The notes below the pieces were generated by a model. It did not search any database, was not told the DNA's origin, and saw nothing but the letters and a program-made list of their open reading frames with translations. A stretch of 64,000 nt of DNA from Mesoterricola sediminis (GTDB taxonomy: Bacteria; Acidobacteriota; Holophagae; Holophagales; Holophagaceae): the NCBI RefSeq assembly GCF_030295425.1, contig NZ_AP027081.1, positions 3,517,001 to 3,581,000 on the forward strand, in the 5' to 3' direction. Shown in pieces: positions 27,225-34,606 of the stretch (positions are counted from its first letter, which is position 1; each line of letters starts with the position of its first letter). A program made the position numbers and the translations under genes.

Positions 27225-28808
27225 ATGGTTTCCCCTGGCCTCCTGGGAGGCACCCCCCCGAAGGATGGGCTTCTGGCCCTGGGGTTCTTCGTTTTCGCGC
27301 TGCTGGTGGTCCAGGCCTGCCAGCGGCTGGTCGAGCACGCCTCCCAGCACATCGAGCCGGTGGAACGCCGGACCGGCCTCCTCCGGGGCGCCCTCTACCT
27401 GGGGTTCCTGGTCTGGGCCCTCGACATGGCGGGCTACGCCATGTATCCCTGGGCCCGGCTGGCCACGGTCCACCTGGGCCCCGCCCTCCTGGCCCTGGCG
27501 GCGATGCTGGTGCTCGCCCAGGCCATCTTCCCCCTGTTCGTGGGCACCCAGGCCGTGGGGCGCGCCTGGGTCGGCGCGTTCGGCCTCAGCGGGGGGGTCC
27601 TCAGCGTGCACGTGCTGGCGGCCTCGGCCTTCGGCGCCCGCCCCGGGGGGGTCATCTTCCCCAAGCTCCTCCTGGCCTTCCTCCTGTCCGCCGCCATCGC
27701 CGGCGGGCTGGCCATGCTCCACCGCAACCACCGGGGGTTCCGGGGGCGATCCCCCCGGACCCTCTCCTGGAACGGCAAGGTGACCGCCGCCGTGCTGGTC
27801 GTGCTCCTGCACCGGACCCTCTGCGCGGCCATTCCCCTCCATTCCGACCCCCGGCCGATGCTCCCGGACGCGGTGTCCACCCTCGTCGGCGTGGCCTTCT
27901 TCGCGGCGGTGGTGGGCCTGGACCAGTGGCTGTCCATGCGGGCGGAGCGCGCCCGGCGGGAGGTCTTCGACCAGGCCCACGCCCTCCTCCGGAGCAGCGC
28001 CTCCCGGACCGGAACCCAGCGCGAGGAACTGAGCAGGGTGGCCGAACGCGCGGAGGCCATCCTGGCCGAAACCCAGTTCGAAATGCACTTCCAACCCATC
28101 TTCTCCCTCCTGCCTGAACGCCCGGGCGTGAGGTTCGAAGCCCTCCTGCGCCCCCGCCATCCGGACCTGGGCCCGATCCATCCGGAGACGTTCTTCCTCG
28201 CCTGCGACCGCCGGGGCATCACCCCCATGGCCGACCGGATCGTGCTGGAATCGGCCATCCGCCGCTCCCGCGGCTGGGCGAGGCGCCTTCCGGGCTGCCG
28301 GGGCATCGCCGTCAATGTGAGCCCGAGGACGCTGCTGGACCCGGATTTCCCCGAATGGCTGGCGGCGGCCCGGGAAGGCCTGCCCACGGGCTGGCTCCAG
28401 CTCGAGATCACCGAGCACGCCATGGTGGCCAACCGCGGCCCCCTGGCCGAGGTGCTGCTGCGCCTGGAGGCCCTGGGGATCCAGACCTACCTGGATGACT
28501 TCGGCACCGGGTTCTCGTCCCTGGGCGTCCTGCCGGCCATCCCCGTCGCCGGCATCAAGTGCGACCGCAGCCTGCTCTCCGGCGAGCCCCAGGCGCGCAC
28601 CGGCCAGGTGATCCTCGAGAAGCTCTGCCAGATGACCCGGGAGCTGGGCATCGCCACCACCGTGGAGGGCGTCGAGACCCCCGCGGAACTGGAGATGATC
28701 CGCCGGTTCGGCGCCACCTCCGCCCAGGGCTTCCACCTGGGCCGGCCGATGCCCGCGGAGCAGGTGGAAGGCTGGCTGGTCTCCCAGGAAAGCTCAAGCG
28801 AGGGGTAG
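27225..28808 (+). CDS. Membrane-anchored EAL-domain cyclic-di-GMP phosphodiesterase
   Basis: A 527-residue protein. Residues ~1-235 hold about seven hydrophobic helices, a membrane sensor module I do not recognise. Residues ~275-520 are an EAL domain: FEALLRPR (EAL motif), IAVNVSP, LEITEHA, YLDDFGTGFSS, IKCDRS and TVEGVET supply the metal and catalytic residues, so hydrolysis of c-di-GMP is expected. No GGDEF domain. Its 3' end overlaps the convergent hybrid kinase gene by 15 bp. Confidence 0.9.
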   Translation: MVSPGLLGGTPPKDGLLALGFFVFALLVVQACQRLVEHASQHIEPVERRTGLLRGALYLGFLVWALDMAGYAMYPWARLATVHLGPALLALAAMLVLAQAIFPLFVGTQAVGRAWVGAFGLSGGVLSVHVLAASAFGARPGGVIFPKLLLAFLLSAAIAGGLAMLHRNHRGFRGRSPRTLSWNGKVTAAVLVVLLHRTLCAAIPLHSDPRPMLPDAVSTLVGVAFFAAVVGLDQWLSMRAERARREVFDQAHALLRSSASRTGTQREELSRVAERAEAILAETQFEMHFQPIFSLLPERPGVRFEALLRPRHPDLGPIHPETFFLACDRRGITPMADRIVLESAIRRSRGWARRLPGCRGIAVNVSPRTLLDPDFPEWLAAAREGLPTGWLQLEITEHAMVANRGPLAEVLLRLEALGIQTYLDDFGTGFSSLGVLPAIPVAGIKCDRSLLSGEPQARTGQVILEKLCQMTRELGIATTVEGVETPAELEMIRRFGATSAQGFHLGRPMPAEQVEGWLVSQESSSEG

Positions 28809-31800
28809 CCCGGACGGCGCGTCCAGGACGGCCCGGACCCGGGCGGCCAGTTCCTCCAGGGTGAAGGGCTTGTCCAGGAGCTGCACCTCCTCCGGGATGG
28901 ACCCCTGGGTGGCGATCACGTCGGCCGTATAGCCGGACATGTAGAGCACCCGCAGGTCCGGCCTCAGCCCCCGGGCCTTGGCCGCCAGGTCCCGGCCGTT
29001 CATGCCGGGCATGATGACGTCGGTGAGGAGCAGGTCCAGGGCCACCGGGCCCTCCATGATCGCCAGGGCCTCCGCGGGCGTGGCGGCGGGGAGGACGGTG
29101 TAGCCCAGGGTCTCCAGCAGCATCTGGGCGACCTCCAGGTTCATCGGCTCGTCCTCCACCACGAGGATCGTCTCGCCCCCGCGCCGTGCGGGAGCCTTCT
29201 CCTCGCGCAGGACCTCGCCGGCCTCCGCCTCCCCGCAGCGGGGCAGGTGGACCCGGAAGCGGGTGCCCCGGCCCGGGGCGCTCTCCACCTCGATGAAGCC
29301 GCTGTTCTGCTCCACGATGCCGTACACGGTGGCCAGCCCCAGGCCCGTGCCGCGCCCCACGGCCTTGGTGGTGAAGAAGGGCTCGAAGATGTGCTTCTGC
29401 TGTTCCGGATCCATGCCGCAGCCCGTGTCCCCCACCTCCAGGACGACGAAGTCCCCGGCGGGCCGGTGGGGCAGCGCGGGATCGGCCTGCACCGTCACGT
29501 TCTCGGTCCGGATCCACATGCGGCCGATGCCGGCGATGGCGTCCCGGGCGTTCACGGTCAGGTTCGCCAGCACCTGGTCCAGCTGGGCGGGGTCCATGCG
29601 GACCCGCCAGAGGCCGTCCGCGGGCCCGTAGTCCAGGGTGATGTTCTCCCCGATGAGACGGGTGAGCATCTGGATCATGTCCGGGATGGCGTGGTTGAGG
29701 TCCAGCACCTTGGGCGACGTGGCCTGCTTGCGGGCGAAGGCCAGGAGCTGCCGGGTGAGTTCCGTGGAACGGACCGCCGCCTTCTTGATCTCCTCGAAGC
29801 GGTCCAGGGCCCGCCCCGGGGGGCTCGCCAGGATGCCCATGTCGGCGTTGGCCACGATGACCCCGAGCATGTTGTTGAAGTCGTGGGCCACGCCCCCGGC
29901 GAGGCGCCCGATGGACTCCAGCTTCTGGGCCTGCTGCACCTCCTCCTGCAGGCGCTGGCGTTCCGACTCCGCGCGCACCCAGTCGGTGATGTCGGACAGG
30001 GTGAGCAGGGATTCGCCGCCCAGGGCCGTCGCGGAGACGAGGACGGTGCGCTGGCCCCCGTCGCGGCAGGCGACGGTGGATTCCAGGACGGGGATCCCGC
30101 TGCCCGGGTCGGTGCGGAGGGTCCAGGCCGCCTCCGCCCCTCCGGGGCGGGACGCGTGGAGCCAATCCGTCAGCGCGGGCACCTCGTCGAGGGAATACCC
30201 GAAGGTCCGGGTGAACTGGGAATTCAGGGCCGTGACCCGCCCGGCCTCGCCGAGAAGGCACATGGGCACGGGCGCGGCCTCGAACAGCTGCCGGAACCGG
30301 GTGCCGCTCTCGACCAGGGCGCGCTCCTCCCGGTCCCGCTCCAGGGCGATCGAGGTGACCTGGGCCGCCGTGGCCATGAGGGTCCGCATCTGCTCCGACG
30401 GCTTCCCGGGGGCGGCGCGGTAGAGGGTGAAGGCGCCCAGGACGCGCCCGTTGGCGGCGAGGATGGGCGTGGCCCACACGGCCCGGATGCCGTACGACCC
30501 CAGGTGGTGGCGCATGGCCAGGTCGCAGGCGGGATCGGTCATGAGATCCTCCACCACGACGTCGGCCTGCGCAGCGACGCAGCGCCCCGAGGGCCCGGCC
30601 CCCGCCCCGGCCTGGAGAGGAATGACGGGCCGGGCCTCGATGAGGCCCGGCGGGAGGCCCGCGTAGGCCGTCCACTTCAGCCCCCCGGCCCCCTCGTCCA
30701 CCAGCAGGATCCCCGCCATGGCGTCGGGGGCCAGGTCGCGCACGAACCCGCAGGCGGCCCCGAGCAGGGCCTGGATGGGCTCGCCGGCGACGATGCGCTC
30801 CAGGAACCGGTTCTGGGCCGCCAGCCTCCGCTGGGTCCACTTGAGCTCGGTGATGTCCCGGGCGATGCCGAAGTGGCCGGTGATGGAACCCTCCTCCTCC
30901 CGCAGGGGCCCCCGGGTCACCAGGAAGGTGCGGGGTCCGGCCGAGGTGGGCAGGATCTCCTCCACCGTGTCGGTGCGGCCGTGCACGAGCACCGCCTCTC
31001 CCGCCGCCAGGGCCCGGGCCGCCTCGGGATCCACCGAATCCCCTTCCCGCTTCCCGAAGACCCGCTCCGCGACGGGGTTGAAGACCAGGCGCCGACCCCG
31101 GCGGTCGAAGGCGAAAATGGCATCGCTGGACCCGCTGGCGATGCTGTCCAGCAGGCGCAGGGTCCGCAGGCGCTCCGCCTGGACCGCGCGCTCCCGCCGG
31201 GTGTCAGCCATGAGGCGCTGCTGCCGGAAGAGGTGGGCCGAGATGCCCACGAGGAACAGGCCCAGGAGCGCCGCGAGGCCGATGATGGCCACCTGGTTGC
31301 GGCTGGCGGCCACGATCTCCTCCTGGTCCATCTTGGCCAGGAGGAACCAGTCGGTGCCGGCCACCGGCACCACGACGCCGGCGATGGCCCGGTCCCGGAA
31401 ATCCAGACCCTTCAGCCAGGTGCCGGGCCGCACCTCGCCCCTCAGGACGCGCGCGCCCACCAGGGACGACGTCGCGAGGGGCCACCGGCGGTTCAGGGCC
31501 AGGCCCTCCTGGAAGCGGGAGTCCGTGAGCGGCAGGAGGTCGTCCCCGTCCCGGCGGAAGAGGATCGCCTCGCCCGTGGTGGAGGGCGAGGGCCAGTCCT
31601 GCAGGCGCGCGTGGACCTGGCGCGCCATGTCCGCCCCGAAGACCACCACCGGCACCCGCCCGCCGCCGGGGGCCCGCAGGGGCGCCAGGAAGTCCAGGTG
31701 GAGCCGGCCGCCGGCGTCCCGGTAGGGCCCCACGACCCGGACCCGCTGGTCCAGGGCCGAGGCCTCCGCCGCCTGCCCCACCTCGGGGGCCACGTCCTGG

Positions 31801-32390
31801 CTGGGCTGGGGCAGGACCCACGCCCCGCCGTCGAGGACGCCCATGGAGGAGAAGCCTCGCGCCTCCCGGTAGACCTCCAGGCGGCCCATGATGTGCTGAC
31901 GCCCCTCGTCGAGCCCCTTCACCTTCCACTTCCGGTAGGCTTCGCTCCAGACGGAGGAGGAGGCCGTGAATTCGGCGTCGCCGGTGCGTTCCTGGATCCA
32001 TTCTGCGGTTTGCCGGGCCTTCAGCTCCGCGATGGCGTGAAGGCGCGCGCCCTCCTTGCGCTCCTGGTAGCGCATCGCCTCCCCGGCCCCGAACCAGGCC
32101 AGGAGGAGGATGGCGAGGGCCGCCATGGCCGCGGGCTGGAAGATCCGCCGCCAGCCCCGGGGACGCTGGGGGCCGTCCCCCTCCGGCAGCCCCCCCATGC
32201 CCCGGTAGAGGAGGAGGGAGCTCACCCCCACGAAGAGCCAGCCCTTGAGGGTGTTGACCAGCGCGAGCCGGGCCGGGTCCCGGACGAGGAAGGACACGAC
32301 CTGGTCCGACAGGAGGATCCAGAGGGCGCTGAAGCCCGCATAGAGCAGCACCAGCCGCATCACGCCAACGGGCCGGGAACCTCCGCTCAT
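28794..32390 (-). CDS. Hybrid sensor histidine kinase (sensor loop, PAS, GAF, PAS, HK, receiver)
   Basis: A 1198-residue membrane kinase. Order: two N-terminal hydrophobic helices (about 10-70), another at ~88-108, an extracytoplasmic sensor region to ~360, a helix at ~367-388, PAS (~405-510), GAF (~525-680), PAS (~690-800), HisKA with AHDFNN (~830), HATPase with DTGCGMD and GTGLGLATVYG (~925-1045), and a C-terminal receiver (from ~1073) with Asp in LLLTDVIMPGMNG. The receiver lacks an output domain, so a phosphorelay or partner is needed. Clear GGAGG before ATG. Stimulus unknown. Confidence 0.93.
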   Translation of the reverse strand: MSGGSRPVGVMRLVLLYAGFSALWILLSDQVVSFLVRDPARLALVNTLKGWLFVGVSSLLLYRGMGGLPEGDGPQRPRGWRRIFQPAAMAALAILLLAWFGAGEAMRYQERKEGARLHAIAELKARQTAEWIQERTGDAEFTASSSVWSEAYRKWKVKGLDEGRQHIMGRLEVYREARGFSSMGVLDGGAWVLPQPSQDVAPEVGQAAEASALDQRVRVVGPYRDAGGRLHLDFLAPLRAPGGGRVPVVVFGADMARQVHARLQDWPSPSTTGEAILFRRDGDDLLPLTDSRFQEGLALNRRWPLATSSLVGARVLRGEVRPGTWLKGLDFRDRAIAGVVVPVAGTDWFLLAKMDQEEIVAASRNQVAIIGLAALLGLFLVGISAHLFRQQRLMADTRRERAVQAERLRTLRLLDSIASGSSDAIFAFDRRGRRLVFNPVAERVFGKREGDSVDPEAARALAAGEAVLVHGRTDTVEEILPTSAGPRTFLVTRGPLREEEGSITGHFGIARDITELKWTQRRLAAQNRFLERIVAGEPIQALLGAACGFVRDLAPDAMAGILLVDEGAGGLKWTAYAGLPPGLIEARPVIPLQAGAGAGPSGRCVAAQADVVVEDLMTDPACDLAMRHHLGSYGIRAVWATPILAANGRVLGAFTLYRAAPGKPSEQMRTLMATAAQVTSIALERDREERALVESGTRFRQLFEAAPVPMCLLGEAGRVTALNSQFTRTFGYSLDEVPALTDWLHASRPGGAEAAWTLRTDPGSGIPVLESTVACRDGGQRTVLVSATALGGESLLTLSDITDWVRAESERQRLQEEVQQAQKLESIGRLAGGVAHDFNNMLGVIVANADMGILASPPGRALDRFEEIKKAAVRSTELTRQLLAFARKQATSPKVLDLNHAIPDMIQMLTRLIGENITLDYGPADGLWRVRMDPAQLDQVLANLTVNARDAIAGIGRMWIRTENVTVQADPALPHRPAGDFVVLEVGDTGCGMDPEQQKHIFEPFFTTKAVGRGTGLGLATVYGIVEQNSGFIEVESAPGRGTRFRVHLPRCGEAEAGEVLREEKAPARRGGETILVVEDEPMNLEVAQMLLETLGYTVLPAATPAEALAIMEGPVALDLLLTDVIMPGMNGRDLAAKARGLRPDLRVLYMSGYTADVIATQGSIPEEVQLLDKPFTLEELAARVRAVLDAPSGLPLA

Positions 32391-32436: not shown

Positions 32437-34104
32437 TCATGGCCACCCCCTCACACGCCGAGGATGAACTTCAGGTTCCTGGTCGCCTCCCGCCCGGCGG
32501 TGAAGACGATCCCGCCCGCCACGGTGATCCGGGACCGGCCCGGGAACAGAGGCTTGATCTCCTTCACGCCCAGCGGGTTCAGGAGGACGCCGTCCTCGAG
32601 GCGCACGAAGAGCAGGTGCGCGAAGGCCTGCTCCACCTCCCCCAGCGTGGTCCAGAAGGTGGCTTCCCGCGCGCCGTCCACCCAGGCCCACACGACCCCG
32701 CCGTGCACCTGGAAATGGGAGGTCCGCCCCACCGGCGCCTGCCGGGTCCCCTCCGGGCCCCGGATCGGATAGGTGGGGCCCGCGGACGGCTCCCAGGTCC
32801 TCGCCGGCTCCGGCGCGGCGGGGAGGGGCGGCTCGGGGACGGGGGGCGGGACCGGGACAGGCGAAGCCGGCGGGGCCGGGACAGGCGGAGCCGGCGGGAC
32901 CGGGACAGGCGGGGCCGGTGGCGCCGGGATAGGCGGAGCCGGCGGGGTCGGGACAGGCGGGGCCGGCGGCGCCGGTTTCCTGCGCTCCCCGTTCTGGCGC
33001 TTCCGGTGCGAGCCATTCCGGCGCTCTGAAGGCGGGGGCGGGGGCGGGGGCGGGGGCGGCGGCTCCGGCGCGGGGGCGGAGGGGGCGGAGGGGGCGGAGG
33101 GGGCGGAGGGGCGGAGGTTCGGGCGCAGGGGGTGGCGGCGGCGGCGCCGGCGCGGGGGGGGGCGGGAGCGGTTCCGGCCAGGGGGCCGGCGCGGGGAGGG
33201 TCGCCGGCGGCACCGGCTCGGCCGCCTCAGGCAGTTCGGGCGGCCGCACCGCGGCCAGGGCGGTGAGGTCCTGGCCCCTGTAGCCCTGCCGGCAGGCCTC
33301 GTCGAAGGCCCGGGCCAGGGTGCGGGCCCCGGGCACGCTCACGCCCGTCTCCACCGCGGCGTCCAGCCACAGGCGGAGGTCCTTGGCGGCCAGGTCCAGG
33401 GTGAGGTCGGTGGGCGCGAAGTCCCGGCGGACGATGAGCCCGCCCAGTCCGTCCAGCAGGGGGGACTTGAACAGGACGCCATTGAGCACCCGGAAGTATT
33501 CGGCGGGGGGGATCCCGGCGCGCTCCCCCACGGCCAGCGCCTCGGCGAGGCTCTCCACCACCGCCGCCGTCATGGCCGTGGCCCCCAGGCGCAGGACATG
33601 GGCCAGCTCGGGCCGGGTGCCGACCCGGGTGACCCCCTTGGCCAGGGATTCCAGCAGGGGCATGCAGCGGTTCAGGTGGAGTTCCGGCCCGGCGGCCAGG
33701 ATCCAGCCCTGGCGGGCGCTGACGAGGGCCGACTTGCCCAGGATGGGGGCGGCCACGAAACCCTGCCCGGCCGCCTCATGGGCGACGGCGAGCCGCCGGG
33801 ACGTGTCCATGCCGATGGAGCTCATGCACAGGTGGACGGCGCCATCGGCAAGGTGGGCGACCAACCCGTCCGGCCCCAGGGTGATGGCGCATTCCGCCTC
33901 GTCGTCCGGGACCAGGCTGAGGGCCACCGAGGCCCGGGCGGCCGCCTCGGCCACCGTGCCCCCGACCCGGGCCCCCGTTTCCGACGCGAGCTGGAGCGCC
34001 TTCTCCCCCACCCGGTCGTACAGGATCACCTCGTGCCCGAGCTGGACCAGGTTCCGCGCCACGGGGGCGCCCATCCTGCCGAGGCCGAGCACGGCGATGC
34101 GCAT
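32437..34104 (-). CDS. NAD(P)-dependent beta-hydroxyacid dehydrogenase-like protein with frame-disrupted 3' part
   Basis: Residues 1-290 are a convincing dehydrogenase: the Rossmann motif VLGLGRMGAPVARNL, the substrate-binding block GFVAAPILGKSALVSARQG, and the catalytic-Lys region (MTAAVVESLAEALAVGERAG; the usual Lys position should be checked, since I read HVLRLGATAMT without the customary GxxxK). From about residue 300 a Pro-rich linker starts. Around 33100-33120, in a run of G-rich repeats, the plausible frame switches. The rest of this open frame (GPACPGPAGSACPG...) looks like a shadow, whereas the other frame gives PVPVPPAPP and a LytTR-like end. It lies 3 bp after the tetraheme cytochrome gene. 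Confidence 0.65.
   Translation of the reverse strand: MRIAVLGLGRMGAPVARNLVQLGHEVILYDRVGEKALQLASETGARVGGTVAEAAARASVALSLVPDDEAECAITLGPDGLVAHLADGAVHLCMSSIGMDTSRRLAVAHEAAGQGFVAAPILGKSALVSARQGWILAAGPELHLNRCMPLLESLAKGVTRVGTRPELAHVLRLGATAMTAAVVESLAEALAVGERAGIPPAEYFRVLNGVLFKSPLLDGLGGLIVRRDFAPTDLTLDLAAKDLRLWLDAAVETGVSVPGARTLARAFDEACRQGYRGQDLTALAAVRPPELPEAAEPVPPATLPAPAPWPEPLPPPPAPAPPPPPPAPEPPPLRPLRPLRPLRPRAGAAAPAPAPAPAFRAPEWLAPEAPERGAQETGAAGPACPDPAGSAYPGATGPACPGPAGSACPGPAGFACPGPAPRPRAAPPRRAGAGEDLGAVRGPHLSDPGPGGDPAGAGGADLPFPGARRGRVGLGGRRAGSHLLDHAGGGGAGLRAPALRAPRGRRPPEPAGREGDQASVPGPVPDHRGGRDRLHRRAGGDQEPEVHPRRVRGWP
32451..33113 (-). CDS. Out-of-frame continuation: proline-rich linker and LytTR-like domain
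   Basis: This frame has no stop from about 33113 to 32451 and no credible start codon until GTG 32732, inside the domain, so it most likely continues the preceding dehydrogenase frame after a one-base slip. It encodes SAP repeats, poly-Pro, a basic patch (RHRKRQNGERRKP), then PPAPPVPVPP repeats and a final ~93 residues. Those read TTLGEVEQAFAHLLFVRLEDG, LLNPLGVKEIKPL and TAGREATRNLKFILGV in segments, the pattern of a LytTR DNA-binding domain. Whether the slip is natural, programmed or a sequencing error in the G-rich tract cannot be told. Confidence 0.5.
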   Translation of the reverse strand, partial: RPSAPSAPSAPSAPAPEPPPPPPPPPPPSERRNGSHRKRQNGERRKPAPPAPPVPTPPAPPIPAPPAPPVPVPPAPPVPAPPASPVPVPPPVPEPPLPAAPEPARTWEPSAGPTYPIRGPEGTRQAPVGRTSHFQVHGGVVWAWVDGAREATFWTTLGEVEQAFAHLLFVRLEDGVLLNPLGVKEIKPLFPGRSRITVAGGIVFTAGREATRNLKFILGV

Positions 34105-34107
34105 GGG

Positions 34108-34470
34108 CTACCGGGGTTTCAGCTTGAAATCGGGGTGGCACTCCAAGCACTTGACGACGGGCGGCTTGTGCTGGCGGTGGCAGTCGACGCAGGCGAAGGG
34201 CCCCGGGTGGCCCGCCTTCAGGGGCGCATGGGGGTTCAGCGGCAGGGCCTTGGTGTAGGCCGCCATCGCCGGATAGTCCCCATGGCAGTTGTAGCAGGAG
34301 CTGTCGGGGACCGCCGCCTTGTCCGGATTCTCGGTCCCATGGCAGTTGTGGCAGGTGACCCCTGCCTTCACATGCTTGGCGTTGAGCCGGGGGTCGGCGG
34401 CGAACCCCTGGGCGGACAGGATCATGCAGCCCACGATCAGCGTCAGGGACTGGAGGGCTCGCATATTCAT
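34108..34470 (-). CDS. Small tetraheme cytochrome c
   Basis: A 120-residue periplasmic protein with a signal peptide ending at GFAA and four CxxCH heme sites: C40-H44, C59-H63, C94-H98 and C108-H112. Several extra His can act as distal ligands. Size and spacing resemble small tetraheme cytochromes and the heme domain of flavocytochrome c fumarate reductases. It would shuttle electrons across the periplasm, fitting anaerobic respiration. It is followed after 3 bp by the dehydrogenase-like gene. Confidence 0.92.
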   Translation of the reverse strand: MNMRALQSLTLIVGCMILSAQGFAADPRLNAKHVKAGVTCHNCHGTENPDKAAVPDSSCYNCHGDYPAMAAYTKALPLNPHAPLKAGHPGPFACVDCHRQHKPPVVKCLECHPDFKLKPR

Positions 34471-34606
34471 TTCCTCCCGCGGAAGCTTGGTCTTGGTCAG
34501 GTGACGGGGTAGCGTTAGTCTACTAAACTACGATCCATAGGTCGCCTGCTTCTTCCTTAGGGCCGGTACGGAGACCGGGCGGCCAGCCCTCCATTCGGGA
34601 GCACCC

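Follow-up and report, generated by a model that had tools for sequence, protein, structure and literature searches.

The window, by which we mean the whole stretch of 64,000 nucleotides that was analysed, carries on its minus strand a locus in which a dehydrogenase-like domain and a LytTR domain are joined by a long proline-rich linker, whose basic motif is also present in the closest relatives. The coordinates of the locus are exact, with the ATG at 34104 and the stop of the LytTR frame at 32451-32453, and its parts are collected in Table 1. The two domains lie in different frames. The frame of the dehydrogenase stays open to 32437 (555 aa) and is out of phase past the linker; that of the LytTR domain is uninterrupted over the 295 aa between its two flanking stops. 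The shift from frame 1 to frame 2 is +1, that is, one extra base or two missing bases. From the assembly as given, the product would be the dehydrogenase and a linker that continues out of frame as far as 32437, and the LytTR domain would be lacking.

Table 1. Position of the features found at the fusion locus and directly upstream of it
Feature	Position	Strand	Basis or remark
Dyad GTTAGTCTACTAAAC	34514-34528	.	Lies in a block conserved in G000, G001, G004 and G005, 5' of the cytochrome-fusion pair
Small cytochrome c (Cytochrom_c3_2, four CxxCH)	34108-34470	-	Directly upstream; ends 3 nt before the fusion ATG
N-terminal dehydrogenase-like domain (NAD_binding_2 and NAD_binding_11)	33237-34104	-	289 aa, frame 1; Pfam, alignments, AlphaFold, Foldseek
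Linker part one, proline-rich	33113-33236	-	Frame 1; contains the C9/G9 run at 33154-33162
Tandem array, 9-nt unit CTCCGCCCC (plus strand: GGGGGCGGA)	33072-33117	-	TRF; residue-composition scan
Basic linker motif SERRNGSHRKRQNGERRK	32976-33029	-	Frame 2; G004, G001 and G005 have a motif, ERRKN..ARK..E.ERR, that looks alike by eye
24-nt tandem repeat, giving a PAPPVP-type linker	32845-32975	-	Frame 2; TRF, translation
C-terminal LytTR domain	32454-32756	-	Frame 2; stop at 32451-32453; profile match, alignments, predicted fold, tree

The arrangement as two separate genes was ruled out. The earliest ATG, GTG or TTG of the LytTR frame is the GTG at 32732, within the LytTR domain, so that no start exists from which the linker could be translated as part of a second gene, and initiation at this GTG would truncate the domain. 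A Shine-Dalgarno-like GGAGGGG, recognised by eye, lies 15 nt 5' of it, at a spacing longer than usual. On these points the sequence-only reading was borne out, since it had described an N-terminal beta-hydroxyacid dehydrogenase, a LytTR-like 3' end in another frame and no start codon for a second gene with the linker; both dehydrogenase families, NAD_binding_2 (93.2 bits) and NAD_binding_11 (55.8 bits), exceeded the Pfam cut-off. The same reading had named the poly-G/C triplet repeats at 33030-33160 as a likely slip site, and the region (33030-33170) was right in outline. When the slip zone was scored by residue composition, with ten relatives providing the reference linkers, the highest score (91.0) fell at 33104-33112, where the CTCCGCCCC array has its first unit, and the G9 run at 33154-33162 was rejected as the best place with 73.6. 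Near ties were obtained at 32981-32983 (90.4) and 33096-33097 (90.1), so the switch maps best, but not uniquely, to 33104-33112, and composition alone does not fix the site. In addition, the basic motif read in frame 2 (33029-32976) resembles the linker motif of the relatives, which argues for a switch upstream of 33029.

To find out how rare such a break is, 464 kb of the genome (the window plus 20 stretches, 5 kb being masked) were scanned, with 442 coding segments and 283 same-strand neighbour pairs, gaps of up to 600 nt being allowed. The linker of the window was the only stop-free frame switch among the 283 pairs. The rule detected 76 of 100 simulated single-base indels and 24 escaped it, so that other breaks could exist; a looser measure, any same-strand frame change, caught all 100, but it is unspecific because 208 real neighbour pairs also show such changes. 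A generally poor assembly was rejected, as no further stop-free frame switch appeared in the 464 kb. The frame break is not due to chance: it is peculiar to the linker, and frame errors are rare elsewhere in the sampled genome. It fits three origins: an assembly error limited to GC-rich repeats, a true mutation where a repeat is prone to slip, or recoding.

The relatives show what the locus looks like when its frame is uninterrupted. In a first search of 41 genomes (its own and 40 relatives), 9 had dehydrogenase matches at E 1e-20 and 22 had LytTR matches at E 0.001, and in G004, G001 and G019 the two share an open frame. Of 77 Holophagaceae genomes searched with a profile, 29 had a close dehydrogenase at E 1e-50. 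The dehydrogenase, the linker and the LytTR domain share a single uninterrupted frame in 11 of these 29 (G001, G004, G019, G055, G056, G064, G067, G069, G070, G081 and G083), and 14 carry an unfused dehydrogenase of 291-293 aa. The remaining four are the window, G002, G005 and G079. In G002, contigs C212 and C257 hold one half each and meet in a 15-nt overlap, and the linker contains an NN gap with different frames on either side; in G005 the two halves lie on two contigs; in G079 the contig stops in the linker, and this genome was counted as fused solely by its place in the tree. Judging from these comparisons, the dehydrogenase-LytTR fusion is natural and conserved in Holophagaceae. The suspicion of the sequence-only reading that this could be a natural enzyme-LytTR fusion was thereby upheld, with in-frame homologues in 11 genomes that form one dehydrogenase clade with the window gene, and the arrangement as two separate genes was not found among the relatives. 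Within genus g4, genomes with a match are either unfused (14; L129-L142) or fused (9; L143-L151, one of these solely by where it falls in the tree), with one match each at E 1e-50. In G019 (L010 / L046), two tandem LytTR domains are fused to the dehydrogenase in one frame, and G017 has a two-LytTR frame (L200 4979-5719) whose 5' side is cut by the contig end.

Beyond the family, a scan of GTDB r220 (84,980 species) listed at least 288 relatives, of which 80 were kept; 2 of the 80 loci are intact fusions, both in Holophagaceae, and a contig end truncates a third one, L047. Of 297 genomes sampled from the phylum, 94 gave a match (E 1e-40). From the longer open frames beyond the family, eight were opened, and these have the dehydrogenase at the C-terminal end and no LytTR domain; the other rows of this search were judged from frame length alone. 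Thus, no fusion outside Holophagaceae was found among the 80 loci kept from the at least 288 matches listed or among the eight phylum frames, and a viral scan gave no relative. Literature searches, mainly of open-access papers, on LytTR with dehydrogenase or NAD_binding_2, on LytTR architectures and on LytTR in Acidobacteriota returned no report of the fusion.

These genomes bear on the origin of the break. A local assembly error, with the gene intact in the living strain, has in our estimation close to an even chance. The break lies within GC-rich tandem repeats, where short-read polishing often fails; the same linker is a trouble spot in the assemblies of G002 (NN gap), G005 (two contigs) and G079 (contig end); and the LytTR frame retains coding composition (GC3 0.97) and is free of stops. 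Against an error of this kind, the sampled remainder of the genome is free of frame breaks, and the linker is uninterrupted in G001 and G004, two congeneric genomes each assembled into a single contig. A functional slip, in which ribosomes would shift by +1 on slippery proline codons or the array would be phase-variable, would yield dehydrogenase alone and dehydrogenase-LytTR from a single gene, and we consider it unlikely. In its favour, the direction is +1, the arrays are able to change length, and the best site reads CCG-CCC-CUC, which as a +1-prone sequence is suggestive only; according to PMC4519876, CCC-C type sequences favour +1 shifts in Escherichia coli. However, the same paper gives low natural +1 rates (about 1% or less at the most shift-prone position) and a dominance of +2 shifts for one tRNA, both of which count against a functional slip. 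Furthermore, the frame is kept in each of the 11 relatives whose linker has no gap, and the array unit has 9 nt, so whole-unit gain or loss preserves the frame.

The identity of the C-terminal domain did not follow from the window profile score. Against Pfam LytTR it reached 19.5 bits (E 0.0012), under the cut-off of 22.6, which was passed by all five LytTR-bearing sequences of relatives that were scanned. It is 47-51% identical to the LytTR parts of G005, G002, G004 and G001, and its AlphaFold model (pLDDT 88, alignment of 4 rows) retrieved with Foldseek ten best rows that are all LytTR structures (3d6w, AgrA, ComE), with TM 0.74 to 3d6w_A and 0.60 to AgrA. The assignment, which agrees with that made earlier from the letters, is secure because of this identity to relatives that pass the cut-off, together with the predicted fold. 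The loop aligned with RCHN of AgrA, in which the Asn is a DNA contact, reads RLED in the window. Across the 15 fused LytTR domains this position holds QR or KR in 11, HR in G002, QS in the second domain of G019 (G019b), QH in G064 and ED in the window. Since ED replaces QR or KR, the window copy may not bind DNA as the other fusions do.

The dehydrogenase part has the predicted fold of its superfamily, and its active site has drifted. Both Pfam families are above cut-off also in G004, G001, G019 and G005. The Rossmann motif is GLGRMG in the window, and GxGxMG is present in 15 of 15 fused rows. The AlphaFold model of the window domain (pLDDT 95.9) has TM 0.93 to 3pef; the top Foldseek row is a chain of the Geobacter gamma-hydroxybutyrate dehydrogenase, and N-PAC (2uyy) comes eighth. 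Active beta-hydroxyacid dehydrogenases are defined by the KxxxN motif, and the Asn of this motif and a later Lys-Asp pair we take to be catalytic residues. The catalytic Lys and the KxxxN motif are absent in the window: R172, at the alignment position of the Lys in 4gbj and 1vpd, stands against K in the other 14 fused rows, and T176 against N in the unfused kin. Fused rows keep the catalytic Lys in 14 of 15, the Asn in 6 (lost in 9) and the Lys-Asp pair in 5 (lost in 10), and only G001, G004 and G005 retain all three features. The unfused proteins have all three in 9 of 9 rows checked (of 14 found), with the Asn in 14 of 14, and the outgroup has them in 10 of 10. Placed on the tree, these differences amount to at least four changes between Asn kept and lost, eight in the residue itself and two in the Lys-Asp pair. 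The nearest dehydrogenases found outside the fusion clade, the unfused Geothrix dehydrogenase (291-293 aa) and 4gbj-type proteins, have no C-terminal extension and keep KxxxN and the Lys-Asp pair in the rows checked. We regard the window protein as a homologue by descent of the beta-hydroxyacid dehydrogenases and do not claim it as an active enzyme. The loss of the Asn is not proof of inactivity, because TSAR (1vpd), an enzyme, carries Gln at the K+4 place, and catalysis may persist in G001, G004 and G005 because all three features are kept there.

In a tree of the dehydrogenase (34 rows), the 15 fused rows including the window form one clade (100/100), within which the window groups with G001, G002, G004 and G005 at 98/94. 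In a tree of LytTR (42 rows, 97 columns), the fused domains and the contig-cut L021 form a 99/98 set that sits among the other LytTR domains of Holophagaceae, and those of them that were read are mostly response regulators. The best LytTR tree does not separate the 15 fused domains from L021, and grouping the 15 was not rejected (p-AU 0.15). Pairwise dN/dS in five pairs of relatives was 0.04-0.25 for the dehydrogenase and 0.15-0.27 for LytTR, and for the linker (four pairs) it was 0.29-0.54. By these ratios, both domains are under purifying selection in the relatives, the linker less so. The window compared with G001 or G004 gave 0.59-0.84, values from divergent pairs on which we place no reading.

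The window copy stands out in these trees. Its LytTR domain is sister to that of G002 (98/84) on a branch of 0.94, the longest among the fusions, its dehydrogenase branch is the second longest (0.59), and no other of the 15 shows R in place of the catalytic K, or ED in the loop. These traits speak for a real and recent +1 mutation that severed the LytTR domain and left the gene decaying, or the dehydrogenase half persisting alone, an explanation to which we give a substantial probability, somewhat short of even. Against it, the LytTR frame has gained no stop, and the dehydrogenase has changed 6 of 54 columns, compared with 7 of 55 in G083, which is in frame. Strong decay of the LytTR domain was not borne out, as its changes in otherwise invariant columns (5 of 19) are close to those of G002 (4 of 18). 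Taken together, an assembly error and a real mutation are about equally likely, and recoding or phase variation is possible, although unsupported.

As regards function, we consider it reasonably probable that the Holophagaceae fusions are a family of one-component regulators, of which the window holds a copy with its frame broken by +1. This explanation builds on an architecture, a single clade of fused dehydrogenases, a conservation of both domains and an active-site drift that were observed, and on two folds that were predicted. The dehydrogenase-like module would bind NAD(P)(H) or a metabolite and form dimers or tetramers; the linker, flexible and carrying a basic patch, would let the LytTR domains reach repeated operator halves; and the ligand or redox state would set the occupancy of the operators by LytTR. 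Alternatively, the protein could still be a working enzyme in which the LytTR part is merely a localisation or oligomerisation domain. The Rossmann motif present throughout and the Lys kept in all fused rows except the window agree with this second possibility, which we nevertheless find rather improbable, given the repeated losses of the Asn and of the Lys-Asp pair and a LytTR part that falls among the other LytTR domains of the family, those read being mostly response regulators.

A one-component regulator of this type, binding NAD(P) and derived from a dehydrogenase, may be convergent with eukaryotic NPAC/GLYR1, which would be its nearest working analogue. N-PAC (2uyy) was also row 5 in a profile search of PDB sequences. 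NPAC/GLYR1 joins a beta-hydroxyacid-dehydrogenase-type domain with a changed catalytic residue to chromatin-binding parts in one protein, and the 11 in-frame relatives likewise join a dehydrogenase to a domain of a nucleic-acid-binding family. NPAC/GLYR1 differs in being eukaryotic, in having a PWWP domain and in carrying the dehydrogenase at the C-terminal end; its Lys is replaced by Met, and the inert dehydrogenase forms a tetrameric scaffold (PMC13144531). Six sequences from five relatives gave no PWWP match at E 0.01. Unlike NPAC, the bacterial fusions mostly retain the Lys, and a shared fusion event is not implied: the fusion may work like NPAC, and it is not an NPAC. A stronger version, a bacterial NPAC/GLYR1 counterpart whose dehydrogenase is midway to an NAD(P)-sensing transcription factor and which in the window species is switched by +1 slips in its C-rich linker between dehydrogenase alone and dehydrogenase-LytTR, seems to us very improbable. 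Concerning the midway picture, the three active-site features are intact in three species and drifted elsewhere.

Among bacteria, Rex-type NAD(H)-sensing repressors also hold Rossmann NAD(H)-binding and DNA-binding parts in one protein, but they have a winged helix at the N-terminal end and belong to a different Rossmann family. The REC-LytTR response regulators of Holophagaceae are those among whose LytTR domains the fusion LytTR falls; the fusion has a dehydrogenase and a long linker in place of the receiver domain. One-component LytTR regulators such as CoxC and RcoM share its layout, an N-terminal sensor part and a C-terminal LytTR domain. Of those compared, CoxC would be the nearest: it is described in PMC11347149 as an MHYT-LytTR protein with an N-terminal sensor and a C-terminal LytTR domain that binds direct repeats, whereas the N-terminal part of the fusion is Rossmann dehydrogenase-like. 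The family would thus record a fusion followed by repeated active-site changes, both domains staying under selection, and its natural series (an intact trio, partly drifted and strongly drifted members) could be used to ask how a sensor of redox state or metabolites arises from an enzyme. To our knowledge, bacteria seldom have DNA-binding domains joined to sensors of dehydrogenase origin. Furthermore, a fusion can go unnoticed when a GC-rich proline linker gives the appearance of a frameshift: a mechanical reading of this assembly yields the 555-aa frame and misses LytTR.

The neighbourhood of the fusion is conserved in part. A frame with four CxxCH within 700 nt upstream occurs, among 28 fused and unfused loci, in the window, G001, G004 and G005 only; it was found in none of the 24 others, G002 included. 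One of the 28 loci offered only 327 nt. In the same four genomes, the block upstream of the cytochrome-fusion pair contains the dyad GTTTAGTAGACTAAC, and its core pattern TTTAGTNNACTAA has a single occurrence in the window genome. This conserved dyad block sits between the divergent cytochrome-fusion and PBP_like_2 genes. Downstream of the fusion, in G055 (L155 9942-12425), an OmpR-type response regulator and a Biopterin_H protein are encoded; by similarity the pair also lies downstream of other g4 fusions, the Biopterin_H protein having close homologues near six of them. In the window, the fusion is followed at 28794-32390 by a large hybrid sensor kinase (PAS, GAF, HATPase, receiver), a homologue of which is found in G001 and G004 further downstream, past two other genes.
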